Part shown: positions 36,322 through 45,825 of the stretch, piece by piece
Layout of the letters: every line of letters starts with the position of its first letter
Position numbering within the stretch: the first letter of the stretch is position 1
Source: Bryobacteraceae bacterium
Lineage (GTDB): Bacteria; Acidobacteriota; Terriglobia; Bryobacterales; Bryobacteraceae
NCBI GenBank assembly: GCA_023384675.1
Contig: JAHDVK010000006.1
Location: 186,001-250,000, forward strand
DNA length: 64,000 nucleotides
Direction: 5' to 3'
Made by a program: the position numbers and the translations under genes
The notes under the pieces: model-generated
Seen by the model: only the letters and a program-made list of their open reading frames with translations
Databases searched by the model: none
What the model was told of the DNA's origin: nothing

Positions 36322-36994
<673 letters not shown>

Positions 36995-37002
<8 letters not shown>

Positions 37003-38089
37003 AGGCAAGCGCCTCGATCGCATCCTGGCGCGCCGCCCGCATACCCGGATACACCGCCCCGAGCAGGCTGGCGACCACGGCGATCAGCAGCGCGATCGGC
37101 CACCAGTCCACGACGATCACCGATTGCAGGTTCGCGCGGATCAGACTGTTGATCAGCGCATTCGCGCCGAAGGAAAGCGCCAGCCCCGCGAGCCAGCCGC
37201 CGAAGGCCAGCAGCAGCGTTTCGCGTACGATGATCCTCAGGATATCGGGCGGCGACGCCCCCAGCGCCTTCAGAATGCCGATTTCGCGCGTCCGTTCGAG
37301 CACCGAAGTGTACATCGTCAGGCCGACGACTAGAAAACCGATGACGATCGACAGCCCGATGATGACGTAGATGAACGCCCGCAGTCCCGGGATGTTGTTG
37401 ACGTTGAACATTGAGACGAACTCTTCGATCGAGAGGATGGTGTAGTCCTCCAGGTTCTTCTTCAGTGCCGCGATGACGGCTTCGGTCTTCCCGGGGTCGC
37501 TCAATTTCAAATAAGCCTGGGAGATCTTGCCGGTATTGCCGGTCAATTCCTGCAGCGTCGTGATCGGCACGAACAGCCGGGCCAACTTGCCCGCTTCCAC
37601 GATGCCGCACACCCGGTAATCGTGGTTGAGAATGCTCACGATATCGCCCACCTTCTTCTTGGTTTGCTGGGCGTACCACTCGTCGATGATCAGATCGTCG
37701 GGACCGGCGAACGAACCGCCGGACAAGTATTTGAACTGGCCCGAAAGTGCGATGAATTGATCGAGGTCAATCCCGGTGACGGTCGATACTCCACCAATCG
37801 GAATGACGAGTGTGCCGGCGGCGCTTGTCACGTGCTCCTGTTTGCGGAAGTACTCGAGGATCTTCACCGGCATCGACGCGCCGGAGAGCGTGATCGCCGA
37901 GGCTCCCGGCGGCTTGATCCAGACATCGGCGCCGACGCCGCGCGCACGCGTTACGGAATCCTCGAGCATGCCGCGGGAAATGCCCACCACGGTGAGAATC
38001 ATCGTCACCTGAAAGCCGATGGAGAGCGCGCTAAGAAGAGTACGCAGGCGGCGGTGCTTCAGGTTTTCGAGTACAAGACGATTAATCAA
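36995..38089 (-). CDS. FtsX-fold ABC transporter permease (MacB/DevC type)
   Basis: 364 residues from TTG 38089, the only start that gives the usual [22 protein letters not shown]-terminus; AAGGAA lies about 13 bases upstream. One N-terminal membrane helix, a large periplasmic domain (~40-235) and three C-terminal helices ([54 protein letters not shown]) give the four-helix FtsX topology. [18 protein letters not shown] is the family signature. It pairs with the ATPase gene downstream. Confidence 0.88.
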
Positions 38090-38144: not shown

Positions 38145-39167
38145 TCATTGAATTTCGATAAACAGCCTCAACGCCGCCTCTATTAGGTGAATCGTGAGCG
38201 CGGCGCCGCAGCCCGGCGCGCCATGCAAACCCAGGCCCAGATGCGGCTCCACACCCAGCGTGCTCAACAGCAGGCCGTGGGCCGCGTCGCCATTGTGCTG
38301 CGCGAAGATCGCGGCGTCGAGCGAATCGGGACTCAACGACCGCGCCAGCAGCGCCGCCACGCCTTCCACATAGCCGTCGACCACGACCGGCAAACGGTTG
38401 GCCGCCGCGCCCAGCAAAAAGCCGGTCATCGCGGCGATCTCCGCTCCACCCAGACAGCGGATTACGCCCACGGGCGTCACGGTTTCGGCCGAATGGCGGG
38501 CCAGCGCGGTGCGGACCGCGGCCACCGACCGGCGCCACGCGGCATCCGGCAGCGCCCGGGGCCGGGCCACAGTCTCTGCCGCGTCTCGCGCCGTGATCGC
38601 GGAAAATGCCGCCGCCGCCGCGACCGCCGCACCCGAACTGATCGACGACAAGCCCACGACGTCGAAACGGGCCGCGGCTTCCGCGGCCAGGGCAAGGCCC
38701 GTATCCATGGCTTGCGCTGCCTGTTGGGCAGTGAGCGCGGGCGCCTTGGTGATGTTCTGCGATCCCGGCGCGCACACCAATTCCAGGGCGCCGGGCGGAT
38801 GCGGCCCGGCCAGACCGGTATTCACCGTGACCGGGTCGATCGCATAGTGCCGGCACAGGATCGCCCCCGGCGCGCCGCCGCGAACGAATTGCGCCACCTC
38901 CCGGGCCGTGGCATCGGCCAACCCGCCCGTCACCCCTTCTTCCACCACCTGCTGGTCGCCGCAGAAAACGTACAGGCCCTTGCGGTGCAGCGCCGGCGCC
39001 GCCGTGCCACGCACCATCGCGTAGTGCAGCACCAGATCTTCCAGCCGGCCCAGCGCAGCCTCGGGCATCGGCAGCGCATCCCAGCGCCTCAGCACGCCCT
39101 CGGCCACGTCCCGGTTCAGCAGCGGAACGATCCGGTCCAGGGTATCGCGGAGTCGGGGACTGATCAT
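38145..39167 (-). CDS. CobT-like protein lacking the catalytic glutamates
   Basis: 340 residues that align along their length with CobT (nicotinate-nucleotide:dimethylbenzimidazole phosphoribosyltransferase): ALGRLEDLVLHYA, VFCGDQQVVEEGV, GGAEIAAMTGFLLGAA, PVVVDGYVEG and GVEPHLGLGL. Yet the catalytic motif RLGEGSGAAL of Salmonella CobT reads HGAPGCGAAL here, putting Pro318 where Glu317 belongs. GEMGIGNT reads SSISSGAA, so Glu174 becomes Ser, and DHG reads DQQ. Ordinary CobT activity is therefore doubtful. It is 25 bases after the CobU-like gene. It may bind a corrinoid-loop base or NaMN without the usual chemistry. Confidence 0.75.
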   Translation of the reverse strand: MISPRLRDTLDRIVPLLNRDVAEGVLRRWDALPMPEAALGRLEDLVLHYAMVRGTAAPALHRKGLYVFCGDQQVVEEGVTGGLADATAREVAQFVRGGAPGAILCRHYAIDPVTVNTGLAGPHPPGALELVCAPGSQNITKAPALTAQQAAQAMDTGLALAAEAAARFDVVGLSSISSGAAVAAAAAFSAITARDAAETVARPRALPDAAWRRSVAAVRTALARHSAETVTPVGVIRCLGGAEIAAMTGFLLGAAANRLPVVVDGYVEGVAALLARSLSPDSLDAAIFAQHNGDAAHGLLLSTLGVEPHLGLGLHGAPGCGAALTIHLIEAALRLFIEIQ

Positions 39168-39192: not shown

Positions 39193-39702
39193 TCAACGAA
39201 TCCGCTTCGGGACGCCGAAGACCATCCAGTACAGCCGCGCGCTCGCCTCGGCCACCTGCCGGTTGATGAGCCCGGCCATGCGCCGCATCGCCCGCGATTC
39301 CTCGCTGTCCACGGGAAAGCCGAAGTCCACGTCGGAGGTGACCACGACCAATTCGGCGGGGCAGGTTTTCGCTAACTCCAGCAGTTCGGCCGCCTCGGCT
39401 TCCGGATCGCGCCCGCCCGCCATCATGAGGTTGGCAACCCACACGGTCAGGTCGTCGATCACGATGGCGTCGTAGCGCGCTCCCTGGTCGCGCACCACCT
39501 GATTGATGTTGAGCGGCTCCTCGCTGGTCACGAAACCTCCGCCGCGGTCGGCCTGCGCCGCCGCCACCTTCTCGCGCGCTTCGTCATCGCCGGGGGTGAG
39601 CGTGGCAATGAAGCCCAGCCGCGCTCCATGAGAACGGGCGAGCGCCAGGGCATACCTGGACTTGCCGCTGCGGCGGCCGCCTCCTACCACTGCTAGAGCC
39701 AT
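39193..39702 (-). CDS. CobU-like protein without the guanylylated histidine
   Basis: 169 residues, the usual CobU length. P-loop GGGRRSGKSRYA is intact and IATLTPGDDEARE aligns with the CobU nucleotide region. The segment that in CobU carries the His that becomes guanylylated (RIARHRADRP type) reads KVAAAQADRG, placing Ala49 at the His position. DCLT reads DDLT and the NEVG motif reads SDVD. CobU normally phosphorylates adenosylcobinamide and attaches GMP; loss of the His argues against the second step. ATG 39702 lies 10 bases inside the end of btuC, so it is co-translated with the importer. Confidence 0.75.
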   Translation of the reverse strand: MALAVVGGGRRSGKSRYALALARSHGARLGFIATLTPGDDEAREKVAAAQADRGGGFVTSEEPLNINQVVRDQGARYDAIVIDDLTVWVANLMMAGGRDPEAEAAELLELAKTCPAELVVVTSDVDFGFPVDSEESRAMRRMAGLINRQVAEASARLYWMVFGVPKRIR

Positions 39703-40697
39703 AGACTTTTCTTCTTCCCTCTTAACAATGCGATGAAGAAGGGGCCGCCGACAAGCGCCGTCAGGACGCTCACCGGGATCTCGACAGTGAAGAGCGTCCT
39801 CGCCGCGGTGTCGCACACGATCAGAAACGCCGCCCCCATCAGAAACGACGCGGGCATCAGCAGGCGATGGTCCCCGCCCAGCCGCAACCGCAGCGCGTGG
39901 GGCACCAGAAGGCCCACGAAGCCGATCGGTCCGGTCACCGCCGTGACGGATGCGGTCAACAGCGAGCCGGCCAGGTAGCCGCCCAACAGAAGCCGGTTCG
40001 GCGAAGCGCCGCGCGTGGCGGCCCACTCCTCGCCCACCGCCAGCAGATTCCAGTGCCGGGCATAGGCGCAAAGCCCCAGCGTCACCGGCAGAATCACGGC
40101 GGCCATCGCCGCTAACGCCGCATAGGGCAGCGGCTCGATTCCGCCCATCAGCCAGTGGACGATCGCGAAGCTCTGCCCGGCGGTGGCCGTGCTGTGCAGC
40201 AGCATGATCGCCGACATGACGATCGCGTTGATCGTCACGCCCGACAACAGCAGCGTGAACGAAGAGAGCCTGCGCCCCTCGGCCGAAATCGAAATTACGA
40301 TTGCCAGCACCGCCGCCGCGCCGGCAAACGCCGCCACCCACAACGCGGGAAAGCCGGCCACGCTTTGCCACCCAAACACGATCGCCAGCACGGCGCCCAG
40401 CGAAGCCCCCGAGGACACACCCAGCGTGAACGGAGTGGCGAGGGCGTCCCGCAACAGCGCCTGAAACAGCACACCCGCGGTGGCCAGCGCCCCGCCCGCG
40501 AGCCCTGCCAACAGGGCGCGCGGCCAGCGCACCGCGAAATACACCTGCGCGTCGGGCCACTCGCCCGCCCAGGCCTTGCGCAGGTCCAACGGGGCCGGGC
40601 CGGCCAGCGGGGCAAGCGACAAGATCAGAAGCAGCGCCAGCGCGGCCAGCAGAAGCACGCGGGCGGTACGGGCGGGAGTGACAGGCGCGATCGTCAT
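39693..40697 (-). CDS. btuC: Cobalamin/iron-chelate ABC permease (FecCD/BtuC family)
   Basis: 334 residues from ATG 40697, overlapping the btuD stop as ATGA; a longer reading upstream is rejected. About ten membrane helices are visible. Family motifs are RWPRALLAGLAGGALATAGVLFQALLRDALATP, TLGVSSGASLGAVLA, LLSGVTINAIVMSAIMLL and GPIGFVGLLVPHALR. It forms the inner-membrane channel with BtuD and receives substrate from BtuF. A siderophore substrate is the alternative, but the neighbouring cob genes favour corrinoids. Confidence 0.88.
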   Translation of the reverse strand: MTIAPVTPARTARVLLLAALALLLILSLAPLAGPAPLDLRKAWAGEWPDAQVYFAVRWPRALLAGLAGGALATAGVLFQALLRDALATPFTLGVSSGASLGAVLAIVFGWQSVAGFPALWVAAFAGAAAVLAIVISISAEGRRLSSFTLLLSGVTINAIVMSAIMLLHSTATAGQSFAIVHWLMGGIEPLPYAALAAMAAVILPVTLGLCAYARHWNLLAVGEEWAATRGASPNRLLLGGYLAGSLLTASVTAVTGPIGFVGLLVPHALRLRLGGDHRLLMPASFLMGAAFLIVCDTAARTLFTVEIPVSVLTALVGGPFFIALLRGKKKSLWL

Positions 40698-41467
40698 GAG
40701 GAGAACGTGATCCAGGGCCGCCCGTCTGCTCGGGTCACCCATTCGGCCTCCACCTGGAAGATTTCGCGGATACGCGCGGCAGACAGAGCGTCGCATGGCA
40801 GCGCGTCGGCCATCAGCCGCCCGCGCTTCAAGGCCAGGACGCGGTGGGAAAAAGCCGCGGCCAGATTCAGATCGTGTGTCACAGCAATTACGAGCATCCG
40901 CTCTTCCTCGACGAGCGCGCGCAGCAGCCGGTAGATCGACAGTTGGTGCTCGAGATCGAGATAGGTCGTCGGTTCGTCCAGCAGCAGGGTTTCCGGCTCC
41001 TGCGCCAGCGCCGACGCGAGCACGACGCGCTGGCGCTCTCCGCCGCTCAGCGACCGGAAATCGCGGTGGCGGAATTCGAGCGTGCCCGTGAGCCGCAAGG
41101 CCCGCTCCACGGCGGCCCAGTCCGCGGAGGTTTCAAATAGTCCTCCCGCATAGGGCGTCCGCCCCATCAGCACCACCTGTTCGGCGGTGAACGGAAAGTC
41201 GAGCCGCAGCGCCTGGGGGACAAATGCCACGCTGCGCGCGAATGCCGCGCGGCGCCACCGGCTCACCGGCTTGCCACGGTACAGGCACTCGCCGGTAAAC
41301 CCTCGCCGCAAATTCGCCATGATGCCGAGAAGCGTCGATTTGCCCGCGCCGTTCGGCCCCGTCAGTGAGACCATCTCCGGGCCGGGGAAAGTGAGCGACA
41401 CGGACGACAGCACTTCGGCCGTGCCGTAGCGCATGGTCAGTGAGCGGGTCTCGAAGAACGGTTCCAT
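40694..41467 (-). CDS. btuD: Cobalamin/iron-chelate ABC ATPase (BtuD family)
   Basis: 257 residues. Walker A GPNGAGKST, Q-loop FVPQALRLDFPF, signature LSGGERQRVVLASAL, Walker B LLLDEPTTYLDL and switch His in VTHDLNLA are all intact. The QALRLDFPFTAEQVVLMGRTPY stretch is typical of the FepC/BtuD branch. It lies three bases after btuF and overlaps btuC. Confidence 0.9.
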   Translation of the reverse strand: MEPFFETRSLTMRYGTAEVLSSVSLTFPGPEMVSLTGPNGAGKSTLLGIMANLRRGFTGECLYRGKPVSRWRRAAFARSVAFVPQALRLDFPFTAEQVVLMGRTPYAGGLFETSADWAAVERALRLTGTLEFRHRDFRSLSGGERQRVVLASALAQEPETLLLDEPTTYLDLEHQLSIYRLLRALVEEERMLVIAVTHDLNLAAAFSHRVLALKRGRLMADALPCDALSAARIREIFQVEAEWVTRADGRPWITFSS

Positions 41468-41470
41468 CGG

Positions 41471-42340
41471 TTAACGGGACGCGGGATGCAGCATCCGGTG
41501 CAGCGCCCGGGCGGCTTCGGCCAGCCGGGGTCCGGGCGCGACGAACTGGTTCGAAGTCACATCGTACACCCGCTGATGCCGGACCGCCTTGAGATCCGGG
41601 AAATTCGCCCATAATTCGAGTTTCCGCCGCCGGGTTTCGGGCGTGGCAGGCCGGCCGTTCATATAGTCGCCCATGTCGAAGATCACGTCGGGATCCGCCG
41701 CCAGCACCTGTTCGAGCGAAATCTTCGGAAACGTGCCGCCACCGGCCGGGGCGGCGTTCCGTCCGCCCGCGGCGGTCAGTAACTCATCGAGATACGAGCC
41801 GTGGCCGGCTGCGAACATGCCCTGGAGAGTGCCGGGGGTCCGGTCGATGATGAACAGGGCAGAGACCGGCGGGCGTCCGGCAGTGGCTTTTCGCAGTTCC
41901 TCGAGTTCGGCCGCCAGCCGCCGAGCCAGGCGCACGCCTTCCTCCGTGGCGCCAGCGGCCCTGCCCGCCTTCCGGATCGAGGCAAGGATCTCCGCAACCG
42001 TATCGAGCTCCAGTTCTTCCACCTGCAACCCCACGCGGCGCAACTTCGCACCCAAATCGACCGGATTCCGGATGATGAACACGAGGTCCGGCCGCTGCGC
42101 CAGGATGCGCTCGAAATCGGGCTGGACAAACGTGCCGATCTTGGGCTTGGACTCCGCCTCGGGCGGGTAGCGGCAGAAGGTAGTGACGCCCACGACCTTC
42201 GGACCAAGCCCCAGCGCGTAGAGGATCTCCGTCACGCCCGGCGCCGTCGAAACGAGCCGTGCCGGCTGCGCCGAGGCCAGACCTGCCGCCGACAAAGTAA
42301 AGAAGAGAGCGCAGGACGCCAATTTCCCAGCCAAGGGCAT
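41471..42340 (-). CDS. btuF: Periplasmic corrinoid-binding protein (BtuF family)
   Basis: 289 residues from ATG 42340, with AGAGGTG directly upstream. Signal peptide (LASCALFFTLSAAGLASAQ). BtuF-type motifs are RLVSTAPGVTEILYALGLGPKVVGVTTFCRYP, KIGTFVQPDFERILAQRPDLVF, VDGL-like helix and ISLEQVLAADPDVIFDMGD. The two-lobed fold joined by one long helix binds cobalamin or cobinamide in family members. It follows cobD by five bases. Confidence 0.88.
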   Translation of the reverse strand: MPLAGKLASCALFFTLSAAGLASAQPARLVSTAPGVTEILYALGLGPKVVGVTTFCRYPPEAESKPKIGTFVQPDFERILAQRPDLVFIIRNPVDLGAKLRRVGLQVEELELDTVAEILASIRKAGRAAGATEEGVRLARRLAAELEELRKATAGRPPVSALFIIDRTPGTLQGMFAAGHGSYLDELLTAAGGRNAAPAGGGTFPKISLEQVLAADPDVIFDMGDYMNGRPATPETRRRKLELWANFPDLKAVRHQRVYDVTSNQFVAPGPRLAEAARALHRMLHPASR

Positions 42341-42345
42341 CACCT

Positions 42346-43362
42346 CTAGTCCCCGGCCTGGAAGAACTCCCTCGCCGCCTCGAGAAAGCGCTCGTTCTCC
42401 GGCCTGGTGCGAACCGCAAACCGGATCGCTTCTCCTTCCACGCCGGGCAGTCCCGTGCAGTCCCGCAGCAGGATCTTCCTGTCCAGAAACCAATCGCAGA
42501 TGGTGGCCGCGGGCCGGTCCGTCTGTGCGAACAGGAAGTTCGCCGTGGCTGGAAGGAAGCGCAAGCCGTCCAGCGGCTCGAACTGCTCCAGCAGGAACGA
42601 CCTTTCCGTTTCAATGAGTTCCCGGGTTCGTTCCGCGTGTTCCGGGTCCGCGAGCGCAGCGCGCGCCGCCGCTTCGGCGAGCGCGTTCACCTGCCAGGGC
42701 TCCCGTTTGCGCCGGAGCCGCTGCATCCAGTCGCCCGAGCCGACCAGCGCACCGATGCGCAGTCCCGGCAGGGCGTGGAATTTGGAGAGAGACCGCAACA
42801 CCAGCACATTCGGATGCGTCGCGCAGGAAGTCACTGCCGATGGGAGCCGCGTAAATTCAATGAAGCTCTCGTCGATCAGCACCGGCCCTTCCCTGGCGGC
42901 GATGGTCCGCCGGATCACCTCCTCGGGAAACGCTTCGCCGGTCGGATTCACCGGCTGCGATAAGACCAGCAGGCCCCGGCTGGGCCAACCCTCCGGATCG
43001 TCCAGACTCAACCTGAGCGCATGGGGAAACGCGCGGTAGAACTCGCTCCACACCGGCGTCACCAGCGACACCGGCCCCTGCCAGCCGGCGCGCGCCACGA
43101 AATGAACCAGTTCGGTCGCGCCCGAACCCGCCAAGACGGCGCTCGCATCCACTTTCCACGCCCCCCCCAAAGCCTCTTCCAGCCCGGAAGGCTCTTGACC
43201 CGGATAGTGGGCAATCCGGTCTAATGCCGCATCCAAAGCGGGGCGCACCGCCGGAGAAGGGCCGAGCGGATTAATGCTTGCGCTCAGGTCGAGCAGTTCC
43301 CGCCAATCCCATCCGCGCTCCTGGGCGACCGCAAACAGGTTCCCACCATGCTTAATGATCAA
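42346..43362 (-). CDS. cobD: CobD-like PLP-dependent decarboxylase/aminotransferase
   Basis: 338 residues from TTG 43362, supported by GGAGG six bases upstream. HGGNL near the N-terminus and ASINPLGPSPAV are typical of CobD/CobC, the L-threonine-O-3-phosphate decarboxylase that makes aminopropanol phosphate for the nucleotide loop. PLP residues look intact: QPVNPTGE, VLIDESFIEF and RSLSKFHALPGLRIG with the Schiff-base Lys. Histidinol-phosphate aminotransferase is the close relative, but the cluster favours CobD. It is 108 bases downstream of the CobQ-like gene. Confidence 0.85.
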   Translation of the reverse strand: MIIKHGGNLFAVAQERGWDWRELLDLSASINPLGPSPAVRPALDAALDRIAHYPGQEPSGLEEALGGAWKVDASAVLAGSGATELVHFVARAGWQGPVSLVTPVWSEFYRAFPHALRLSLDDPEGWPSRGLLVLSQPVNPTGEAFPEEVIRRTIAAREGPVLIDESFIEFTRLPSAVTSCATHPNVLVLRSLSKFHALPGLRIGALVGSGDWMQRLRRKREPWQVNALAEAAARAALADPEHAERTRELIETERSFLLEQFEPLDGLRFLPATANFLFAQTDRPAATICDWFLDRKILLRDCTGLPGVEGEAIRFAVRTRPENERFLEAAREFFQAGD

Positions 43363-43470: not shown

Positions 43471-44331
43471 CTACACGAAACTCGAGGTTTCCGAAGTCAG
43501 CCAGTCCATGACCGCCTCCGCCGCCTCAGACCCGTCCCACCAGTCCGCAAGCGCCTCCAGGACTTCGTCCTGCGGCATCGGCGGCGACAAACGCACCCCC
43601 AGGAGAGCCGACAATTCCTCGCCCGACAGCAGCGTCTCGCGCGGCAGGTTGCGCGTGTGCGCGGTCACCGGCTCGCCTGTTGAATACAGAACGCACCCCA
43701 TCGCCCTCTGCGTAAAGAGCCACTCGTCCAGCCCCTGCAGGGCCAGCCACTCCCGGTCGCTGGCCGGATTACTCGTCAAGGGGAAGAAGATCGCATCGAA
43801 GCGGCCCGGCATGGGCGCGGCCACCCATTCAGCCGCGCGGAGCATCGCATAGTCGCTGAAATGCACCAGATGTGGCAGCGATACCACGCCATAGCGCGGC
43901 ACGCCCACCCGATACAAGGGCAGCGCAGCCACCTCCGGCGGGTATTCCGGCAGCAGCGGATCAATCCTCGGGTGGGGGAACGAGACGTCCCTATTCCCGG
44001 GCAGCGTAACGTCCAGGCCCAGGTCATCACGGCGCACCGTGAGCCGCGCCGCTGCTCCGTGAGGCGAAGCCAGGGCCACGGTAATATCGGCTTTGTGGCA
44101 GATTCCGGGCGGGGCCTCGCCCGGCTCGGCAAAGTCTTCATCGGGAAACAGGCGGCAGGCGTCTGCAAGAATCGCCAACTTCCTCGATGCCTGCTCCATC
44201 TGGCCTGCCTGGCCCGGGCTTGGGCACCAGGGCATCACATCAAATCCCTGCCTGGTCAGTGCGCGCGCGACCCCTGAAGCAACCTGCAGAGTGGCCTCAG
44301 CGTCCGGACCGGTGATGTAGAGAGGTTTCAC
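43471..44331 (-). CDS. Degenerate CobQ/CbiP-like protein
   Basis: 286 residues from GTG 44331. It resembles cobyric acid synthase shortened and stripped of its active sites. Residues 3-37 align with the CobQ P-loop region but GTxSDAGKST reads GPDAEATLQ, while VARALTRQGFDVMPWCP keeps the following helix and strand. SLPHLVHFSDYAML (151-164) matches the RLPxISNFTDFDPL segment. DAIFFPLTSNPASDREWLALQG (179-200) matches the start of the glutamine amidotransferase domain. GGKVLGICGGYQ reads MGCVLYSTGEPV, with Thr218 in place of the catalytic Cys. Neither ATP-driven synthase nor glutaminase activity is expected. Relationship to CobQ is my motif-level alignment. Confidence 0.6.
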   Translation of the reverse strand: MKPLYITGPDAEATLQVASGVARALTRQGFDVMPWCPSPGQAGQMEQASRKLAILADACRLFPDEDFAEPGEAPPGICHKADITVALASPHGAAARLTVRRDDLGLDVTLPGNRDVSFPHPRIDPLLPEYPPEVAALPLYRVGVPRYGVVSLPHLVHFSDYAMLRAAEWVAAPMPGRFDAIFFPLTSNPASDREWLALQGLDEWLFTQRAMGCVLYSTGEPVTAHTRNLPRETLLSGEELSALLGVRLSPPMPQDEVLEALADWWDGSEAAEAVMDWLTSETSSFV

Positions 44332-44350: not shown

Positions 44351-45277
44351 TCACAAGCCCGCTTCGCGCAGTAGCGCTGCGGCGAAGGCGCGGACATCCA
44401 CCGGCGGGGCCGCCGGATCCTTGCGCGCCGCGATCTCGTACTGTTCCAAATCTCCGGAAATTCTTGCGACCAGTTCGAAAGGAAATCGATTCTCCAACCG
44501 CGTGAGGGAGCGCATCAGACCAGGCATCCGGTCGAGTACGTCCAGGGATACAACGATGCCTGCCTCCTGAGGAGGGAACGCCTTCCGGTCGTCCACTAAC
44601 TGGATGAAGGCCGGATTTCGCGCGCCCGCGTCCAGAACCTCGCCGGCGATCAGCGTCACCTGACCAATCTCGAGCGCCTGGTAAAGCTGATCCGAATCGA
44701 ATACCTGCACTGCGCCGGCCAGGGGCAGTTTATAGGCGCTCATCAGAAGCGGAAGTCCATCAGGCCGGCTCATGAACTCGCGCGTCGCACCCATTCGCCA
44801 TGGGCCTTTCCGCTTGGCCGCCGCTCCGAGCGTTGCTCCGCCGTCCGGTCCGGCTCGCTCCTTTGTGGTCAGCAGCACGGGCGGGTTGGCGAAGCCCAGC
44901 GGCGCCACCCATTCGCACCGGAACTGGATTCGGTAGTTCGTCTGCACCTGCTCCCGGACATTGGCGGCGTCCGAGGAGGGCGGCAGACCCAGGACGGTGG
45001 TCAACGCCACCCCCGAGTACTCCGGGTAGAGGTCGATCTGACGCGCCAGCAGGGTCTCGTGCGCCATTGCCGTGCCGCCCAAGGACGGACGCAATTCCAC
45101 CGCTTCAACCCCGTAGATGGATTCCAGATGGAGAGCAATCGCCGCCGAAATCAGCGCCTGCCCGGCGCCGGTTTTCGCGCCTACCTGAACCTGAGCCTCG
45201 GGCGCTCGGCGGCACCCCACCGCGGCGGCGGCCAGACACAGTGTTCGCAATAATCCGCGACGGCTTGGCGTGCGCAT
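44351..45277 (-). CDS. Tat-lipoprotein, glycine-betaine-type ABC binding protein
   Basis: 308 residues. The N-terminus has a twin-arginine motif (SRRGLLR) and a lipobox ending at Cys22 (AAVGC), so it is probably a Tat-exported lipoprotein. The mature domain is of the OpuAC/ProX/OsmF type (VGAKTGAGQALISAAIALHLE, ARQIDLYPEYSGVALTTVLG, QALEIGQVTLIAGEVLDAG, VVSLDVLDRMPGL). No permease or ATPase of the quaternary-amine class is adjacent. It ends 19 bases before the CobQ-like gene, so it may deliver a ligand relevant to the corrinoid locus, or serve a transporter encoded elsewhere. Confidence 0.78.
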   Translation of the reverse strand: MRTPSRRGLLRTLCLAAAAVGCRRAPEAQVQVGAKTGAGQALISAAIALHLESIYGVEAVELRPSLGGTAMAHETLLARQIDLYPEYSGVALTTVLGLPPSSDAANVREQVQTNYRIQFRCEWVAPLGFANPPVLLTTKERAGPDGGATLGAAAKRKGPWRMGATREFMSRPDGLPLLMSAYKLPLAGAVQVFDSDQLYQALEIGQVTLIAGEVLDAGARNPAFIQLVDDRKAFPPQEAGIVVSLDVLDRMPGLMRSLTRLENRFPFELVARISGDLEQYEIAARKDPAAPPVDVRAFAAALLREAGL

Positions 45278-45336: not shown

Positions 45337-45825
45337 TCAAACCACCCGTTCCGCGGACGGCGCCTCGGGCTGCATCACCGAGCGTTCGCGCAGAAACACG
45401 CTCATCTCCGCTTCCGTCCGCAGCAGATCCCGCAGCGTGGTCCGCGTCAGGATGGTGTCGAGCGTCTTTTGCACGTTGCTCCACAGCAGCCGCAGCGAAC
45501 AGTCCGCCGCGTGCGCACAGGAACGCTCCAGCCCGGCGTGCCGGTCGCAGAAATGCGGCCCGAAGAAACTGCCTCCGAGCAGCGAGAGCACTTCGGCAAT
45601 CGTCACCTGGTCCGACGGCTTCGATAACGTATAGCCACCGGCTTGGCCGCGCACGCTCGCCACCAGCCCGCCGAGCCTCAAAATGCGCATCAACTTGGCT
45701 ACATTTGGCACCGAGAGGCCTTCCGCCCGGCTGATCTCCGGGATACTATGACTCTTCTCTTCGCCGTGCCTTGTCATGTACAGAAGACACCGCAGTCCGT
45801 ACTCTTCTTGGGCGCTCAGCTTCAT
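45337..45825 (-). CDS. Rrf2-family transcription regulator with cluster-type cysteines
   Basis: 162 residues. The winged helix-turn-helix is typical (MKLSAQEEYGLRCLLYM, IPEISRAEGLSVPNVAKLMRIL, VRGQAGGYTLSKPSDQVTIAEVL). Cys93, Cys103 and Cys109 lie in the position where IscR, NsrR and RirA hold an Fe-S cluster, spaced C-x9-C-x5-C. It therefore probably senses iron, NO, oxygen or Fe-S supply. ATG 45825 lies six bases after TACAAT with TAGACT 17 bases further up, which points to a leaderless transcript. It is divergent from glgP. Confidence 0.88.
   Translation of the reverse strand: MKLSAQEEYGLRCLLYMTRHGEEKSHSIPEISRAEGLSVPNVAKLMRILRLGGLVASVRGQAGGYTLSKPSDQVTIAEVLSLLGGSFFGPHFCDRHAGLERSCAHAADCSLRLLWSNVQKTLDTILTRTTLRDLLRTEAEMSVFLRERSVMQPEAPSAERVV

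Follow-up and report, generated by a model that had tools for sequence, protein, structure and literature searches.

A clade of CobU homologs lacking the guanylylated histidine in B12 importer operons of Bryobacteraceae

RESULTS

The window, meaning the whole 64,000-nucleotide stretch of Bryobacteraceae DNA analyzed here, carries a B12 operon on its minus strand. Read in the direction of transcription, an Rrf2-type regulator (45337–45825) and an OpuAC-type substrate-binding protein (44351–45277) lie upstream, followed by a shrunken remnant of the cobyric acid synthase gene cobQ/cbiP (43471–44331; 286 aa, without the glutaminase region) and by a strongly conserved cobD, encoding a threonine-phosphate decarboxylase-like protein (42346–43362). 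The importer genes come next: btuF for the periplasmic binding protein (41471–42340), btuD for the ABC ATPase (40694–41467), and btuC for the FecCD permease (39693–40796), the only FecCD match in the genome. The listed open reading frame of btuF reaches 42493, and the ATG at 42338–42340, with its signal-peptide-like start, is the probable initiation codon. After btuC come a variant cobU (39193–39702) and, 25 bases further on, a variant cobT (38145–39167). The conserved downstream neighbors are an FtsX/MacB-type permease (36995–38089) and an ABC ATPase (36322–37023), the latter assigned to the LolD type without a family search.

The product of cobU, a protein of 169 aa, had been described in a first-pass annotation as a CobU homolog that lost the guanylylated histidine and retained the kinase P-loop. 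We found the family assignment to be sound, as the protein scored 127.6 bits against PF02283 (gathering cut-off, 27). Its AlphaFold2 model (pLDDT 91.2) has a predicted CobU fold, matching 9vit_A with a Z score of 25.2 (1.7 Å over 165 residues) and Salmonella CobU (1c9k) with a Z score of 22.6. The P-loop is indeed intact: codons 7–15 (39658–39684) read GGGRRSGKS, fitting GxxxxGKS, and the equivalents of Gly13 and Lys14 were present in all 45 rows of our alignment. Ordinary CobU phosphorylates cobinamide and then transfers GMP via a histidine. Going by the title of a 1999–2000 study, His46 of Salmonella CobU is reportedly the guanylylated residue. At this site, the window protein has alanine (codon 49, 39556–39558), as had been read from its KVAAAQADRG context; in the profile alignment, the second histidine of Salmonella RIQHHKDGR pairs with Ala49 of KVAAAQADR. 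A family alignment around this position, proposed earlier as a check, gave His in 33 rows, Ala in 11, and Gly in 1. A chance alignment shift at this column was ruled out by the variant, 45-row, and Salmonella profile alignments. The reported replacement of NEVG by SDVD was also confirmed, at codons 123–126 (39325–39336), and the FRD that follows the NEVG position reads MRR.

The NCBIfam equivalog NF004469 has a cut-off of 161 bits, which the window CobU missed with 110 bits and the variant of locus L033 with 123.4 bits; the ordinary relatives scanned all passed (4/4, 162.1–184.6 bits). Family and fold place the protein in CobU; its two altered signature motifs and its score below the curated threshold keep it out of the bifunctional enzyme. 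A second, ordinary CobU doing the work in the same genome was ruled out, as the variant is its single PF02283 match (genome 97.4% complete).

We examined how widely this type of CobU is distributed. An order-level search of 200 genomes found it in 10, the window's genome included (80 rows, with 13 weak matches left out as partial or below the family cut-off). Across 237 Bryobacteraceae genomes, there were 11 carriers scoring 301–336 bits; the CobU of genome G625 came next at 209 bits, and ordinary CobU reached at most 173 bits. A search of the phylum (396 genomes), compared by score, gave 301 bits for the window's own gene versus 109–128 bits for the eight other genomes with matches. The carriers fall within two genera of Bryobacteraceae (g1 and g11) and are few in number, living in soil and groundwater. 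A scan of named genome records located eight variant loci, all of them from Bryobacteraceae, Bryobacterales, Candidatus Solibacter, Paludibaculum, or unplaced Acidobacteria MAGs. Occurrence in 11 genomes rules out a sequencing error or single-genome oddity.

The 45-row tree, with 10 of the variants in it, groups these as a single clade (support 100/100). Its stem is long, at 0.86 changes per column, and its sister is the G625 protein, which bears the histidine (98/92). Ala49, Ser123, Asp124, Asp126, Arg141, and Arg148 are invariant in 11/11 variants, and column 84 holds Asp in 10 and Glu in one. Among the 28 ordinary rows, Asn123, Glu124, Gly126, Asp141, and Cys84 are found in all, with His at position 49 in 27. 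Because Ala49 is fixed throughout the variants and SDVDFGF is likewise invariant across the 10 aligned, Ala49 is not a chance substitution. The loss is wider than one residue, being a clade-wide fixed change of about ten conserved residues.

Gene order is also shared. Where the contigs reach, the variant loci read cobD-btuF-btuD-btuC-cobU-cobT-ftsX-lolD (the L042 contig stops short of lolD), and CobS gave no match in the 10 variant loci fetched. Upstream, the Rrf2-type regulator is present in 7 of these 10 loci and in the window, and the OpuAC-type gene in 4 of the 10 and the window (5/11 in all). The 286-aa protein encoded at 43471–44331 had no Pfam or NCBIfam match; its family, compared with three ordinary cobyric acid synthases, matched them with a probability of 99.8 and an E value of 1.8e-29. 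The middle part and the glutaminase region are missing from this family, and the P-loop, still present in the g11 rows, has been lost from the window protein. Seven of the 10 fetched variant loci have the remnant, as does the window; L034 ends early, and the window's genus has two further loci, L040 and L041, that lack the remnant despite more than 5 kb of upstream sequence.

As side observations on these loci, the FtsX/MacB-type permease and LolD-type ATPase pair (36322–38089) follows cobT in the variant loci with enough contig and in L127, the locus of G625, and was seen in no other ordinary locus fetched. An OpuAC/OsmF-like binding protein recurs beside B12 operons of the family, variant and ordinary (L160, L165, L166), and might import a precursor. 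At L036:8451-9373 (G196), btuC is split over two frames with its FecCD pieces six bases apart, by a frameshift or sequencing error.

The 10-base overlap of cobU with btuC, pointed out in the first-pass annotation, is real, running from the cobU start (39702) to the btuC end (39693). Its reading as translational coupling that hints at partnership with the importer did not survive comparison. A start codon at −10 relative to the btuC end occurs in 10/10 variant loci and also in 12/25 ordinary, His-bearing loci, among them L127, so the overlap is an inherited, ancestral arrangement that shows nothing special.

The sister locus L127 shows what the ancestor may have looked like. On an 8.4-kb contig of a genome that is 82% complete, it reads cobD-btuF-btuD-btuC-cobU-cobS-cobT-ftsX-lolD. 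The G625 CobU keeps its histidine and has NEVGCGIVP, its CobT keeps GEMGIGNTT and GEGTGAA, and both proteins pass the NCBIfam cut-offs. Given this ordinary, cobS-bearing operon with its catalytic residues, the variant operon arose from one of that kind.

To compare the genes of the operon, we counted columns at least 90% conserved among ordinary sequences. For CobU, 30 of 49 such columns are kept in the variants, 10 carry a new fixed residue, 4 are lost and variable, and 5 are in between; for CobT, 39 of 102 are kept, 2 are newly fixed, 18 are lost and variable, and 43 are in between. These counts (10/49 versus 2/102 newly fixed) suggest a switch in CobU and, for CobT, relaxation at the sites that used to be conserved. 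The importer proteins retain 56/58 (BtuD), 67/73 (BtuC), and 37/50 (BtuF) columns, and CobD retains 86/99, with 6 newly fixed, among them Phe to Trp105 and His to Tyr109. Median dN/dS for cobU was 0.171 among variants (20 pairs) versus 0.137 among ordinary genes (10 pairs), and for cobT, 0.14 (5 pairs) versus 0.156 (25 pairs); these medians come from simple counting over non-independent pairs that share at least 70% identity, and dS was often close to 1. Single values for more distant pairs reached 0.44 for cobT and 0.39 for the cobQ remnant. The variant cobU is under purifying selection, with dN/dS like that of ordinary cobU, and a new job for its product is probable because the histidine was lost yet selection is strong.

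These data bear on whether cobU, cobT, and cobQ are a decaying relic, persisting merely by sharing an operon with an essential importer. Such decay would fit the loss of cobS, cbiB, and the riboswitch (see below), the CobT and CobQ remnants without catalytic parts, and the absence of the cobQ remnant from the G043 and G065 loci. For cobU, however, all 11 frames are stop-free, Ala49, SDVD, Arg141, and Arg148 never vary, and dN/dS matches that of the working gene. The new fixed residues in particular disfavor decay, which we consider unlikely.

The neighboring CobT has changed as well. By chain count in Salmonella CobT (SeCobT), Glu174 lies within GVGEMG and Glu317 within RLGEGSG; the window protein has Ser175 and Pro318 instead of these catalytic glutamates. 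The 11 CobT variants have Gln, His, or Ser at the first column and Ala, Ser, Gly, Pro, or Thr at the second, and ordinary rows have Glu in 22/23 and 23/23, respectively. The window CobT missed both NCBIfam cut-offs (NF000996, 234.8 versus 306; TIGR03160, 223.2 versus 319.3), and the L033 variant just reached the first (306.2) and missed the second (294.3); all three ordinary relatives scanned passed both. The window CobT is nonetheless predicted to fold well (pLDDT 90.7). Glu317 of SeCobT is the general base and Glu174 holds the ribose, and archaeal MjCobT, which lacks Glu317, works with Asp52 and retains a counterpart of Glu174 (PMC9561151). Loss of Glu317 alone would therefore not prove a CobT inactive. 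A Glu two residues before the Glu317 column in 8 of the 11 variants (the window CobT has no such Glu), along with the MjCobT example, speaks against a simple verdict that these proteins are dead.

We then considered B12 metabolism across the genomes. CobS (PF02654) was missing in 8 of 10 variant genomes (the search left out G641), including that of the window and G104, which consists of two contigs and is given as 100% complete; it was present in variant genomes G060 and G069 and in 12/12 comparators with ordinary CobU. CbiB was absent from 9/10 variant genomes, the exception being G060, and present in 8/12 comparators. G060 has a separate ordinary CobU besides the variant, plus its own cobS/cbiB cluster. 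CbiC was absent from all 21 genomes, variant and ordinary. A PduO-type adenosyltransferase was found in 21/21 genomes and a BtuR-type in none of the 21, and the window's genome has eight matches to the B12-binding domain. For the FecCD permease, 9 of 11 variant genomes have one match, G196 has one gene in two pieces, and G060 has two matches, making the btuC of the variant operon the sole FecCD permease locus in 10/11.

Cobalamin riboswitches occur somewhere in 24/25 genomes. An Rfam scan of the window and eight variant loci (L034 and L128 left out) gave no match of any kind, and so no cobalamin riboswitch, versus 4 of 7 comparison loci with one (the seven include the His-less L037). In variant genomes G000, G065, G026, G104, G155, and G182, the riboswitch instead precedes a TonB-type receptor elsewhere. 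These genomes look like those of cells that use B12, lack the means to finish it, and import it. As a separate observation, G191, from the window's genus, has B12-binding domains and a cobalamin riboswitch and no match to CobU, CobS, CbiB, or FecCD; its operon may be unassembled or lost, since the genome is 84% complete.

Two other readings each keep one of the CobU reactions. If the variant were a cobinamide kinase only, it would phosphorylate adenosylcobinamide so that incomplete corrinoids are trapped or buffered after import. The intact P-loop and retained fold are in keeping with this, and the fold tolerates a His-to-Ala change, as the H49A CobU of Akkermansia was crystallized (according to the entry title). 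Yet Cys84, the NEVG loop, and Asp141 were altered along with the histidine, and the cobinamide-phosphate product would lead nowhere in the absence of CobS; we regard this reading as very unlikely. That the variant is still a guanylyltransferase, with another nucleophile, is close to implausible: His25 is invariant in the clade, but the alignment contains no replacement histidine or other direct support, both NEVG and the FRD aspartate have changed, and most variant genomes have no CobS to use GDP-cobinamide.

CobD suggests a different use. The CobU variant could be a kinase of a non-corrinoid substrate, phosphorylating an amino alcohol or hydroxy amino acid whose product CobD decarboxylates or transaminates for a purpose other than cobamide assembly. 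CobD has kept most of its conserved columns, with new fixed residues, though CbiB, which is known to use the CobD product, is mostly gone; in three ordinary loci without CbiB (G066 = L049, G013 = L046, and G028 = L163), blastp found no cobD in the fetched stretch. There may also be a precedent, by analogy, in the L-Thr kinases PduX and BluE, which feed CobD-type enzymes (PMC6249242). The genes nevertheless remain beside a B12-type importer, and on balance we think this explanation rather improbable.

DISCUSSION

The closest characterized proteins are the bifunctional CobU enzymes of Salmonella (1c9k), Methylocapsa (8yes), and Akkermansia (9vis, and the H49A mutant 9vit). The variant shares with them the Pfam family, the whole-length fold (Z scores of 20–25), the P-loop, and the operon position between btuC and cobT. 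It differs in the replacement of His by Ala, Cys84 by Asp, NEVG by SDVD, the FRD Asp by Arg, and the NQ Gln by Arg, in falling below the NCBIfam equivalog cut-off, and in having no CobS to take its product. We found no description of a natural His-less CobU clade in the open-access literature (most subscription papers were outside this scope), nor, in the same literature, a paper accompanying PDB entries 9vit and 8yk8.

The ordinary salvage operon of Bryobacteraceae (L047, L169, L177, and the sister L127) reads cobQ-cobD-btuF-btuD-btuC-cobU-cobS-cobT, with cobD or cobQ missing in some, and L127 resembles the variant loci further in having ftsX and lolD downstream. In contrast, cobS is missing from the variant operon, no riboswitch was found ahead of it, its cobQ is shrunken, and its CobT lacks Glu174 and Glu317. 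The CobT-like protein has the fold and family of SeCobT, MjCobT, and ArsAB (the last compared in outline), with both SeCobT glutamates replaced in the window. Cobinamide salvagers have been described as a class (PMC6461909); the ordinary relatives fit that class and the variant clade does not.

We lean toward reading the CobU variant as a neofunctionalized P-loop kinase or NTPase that handles corrinoid in cells dependent on the import of complete cobamides. An operon for cobinamide salvage (cobQ, cobD, btuFDC, cobU, cobS, cobT) was remodeled once, in the ancestor of two Bryobacteraceae genera, through loss of cobS, of the cobalamin riboswitch in front, and of the CobT catalytic glutamates, with shrinkage of CobQ. 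CobU lost its guanylylated histidine and gained new charged residues, now fixed, near the nucleotide/corrinoid site. Import of complete cobamides appears necessary because the nucleotide loop cannot be built, though B12-binding proteins and an adenosyltransferase are present, and entry is most likely through the operon-encoded BtuFCD.

Production of GDP-cobinamide by the known histidine mechanism would be impossible for this protein, and the second reaction seems both unlikely and useless, as there is no His, no NEVG loop, and mostly no CobS. A positive function is argued by the strong constraint together with the new charged residues. The protein most likely binds an NTP at its P-loop, and it may act as a kinase or an NTP-driven accessory protein on an imported corrinoid or related small molecule, alongside CobD and the CobT-like protein; contact with the importer is conceivable. 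Between NTP-driven corrinoid handling and a changed kinase working with CobD, sequence cannot choose. Counting against the reading we favor, the CobT columns look like relaxation rather than a switch, some dN/dS values of cobT and the cobQ remnant are as high as 0.39–0.44, the btuC overlap is ancestral, and G060 and G069 still have CobS. The conservation of CobD lacks explanation under a pure import model.

A bolder proposal, which we put forward tentatively and as something short of an even prospect, is that a B12 nucleotide-loop operon was converted enzyme by enzyme. A CobU kinase or NTP-driven protein of new specificity, the retained CobD, and a non-catalytic CobT-like protein would capture, deliver, or modify the cargo of the sole BtuFCD. 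If this were true, a corrinoid-handling module would have been built from former biosynthetic enzymes.

The hand-over of imported B12 from transporter to enzymes is poorly known, and residual synthesis genes in B12 importers are often written off as leftovers; here, they are under purifying selection with new fixed active-site residues. This makes the reuse of biosynthetic enzymes in uptake or trafficking open to test, with a natural CobU that bears the His-to-Ala substitution also made in a laboratory mutant. For annotation, the Pfam level would mislabel the window's genome as a partial cobinamide salvager.

Finally, a different genus of Bryobacteraceae holds a lineage of His-less CobU of its own, separate from the first (L037:9614-10857 in G119 and L032:705-1211 in G178), with Ala and Gly at the His column and TEVG for NEVG. 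G178 has no CobS match, and the sister genome G010 is ordinary. In G119, the CobS-like neighbor reads YREAGLASITDA where ordinary rows have LHEDGLADxxDx (rows L053, L054, L055, L057, L058, and L060 were left out of this motif comparison), and since this motif stands beside a His-less CobU, both proteins look altered.
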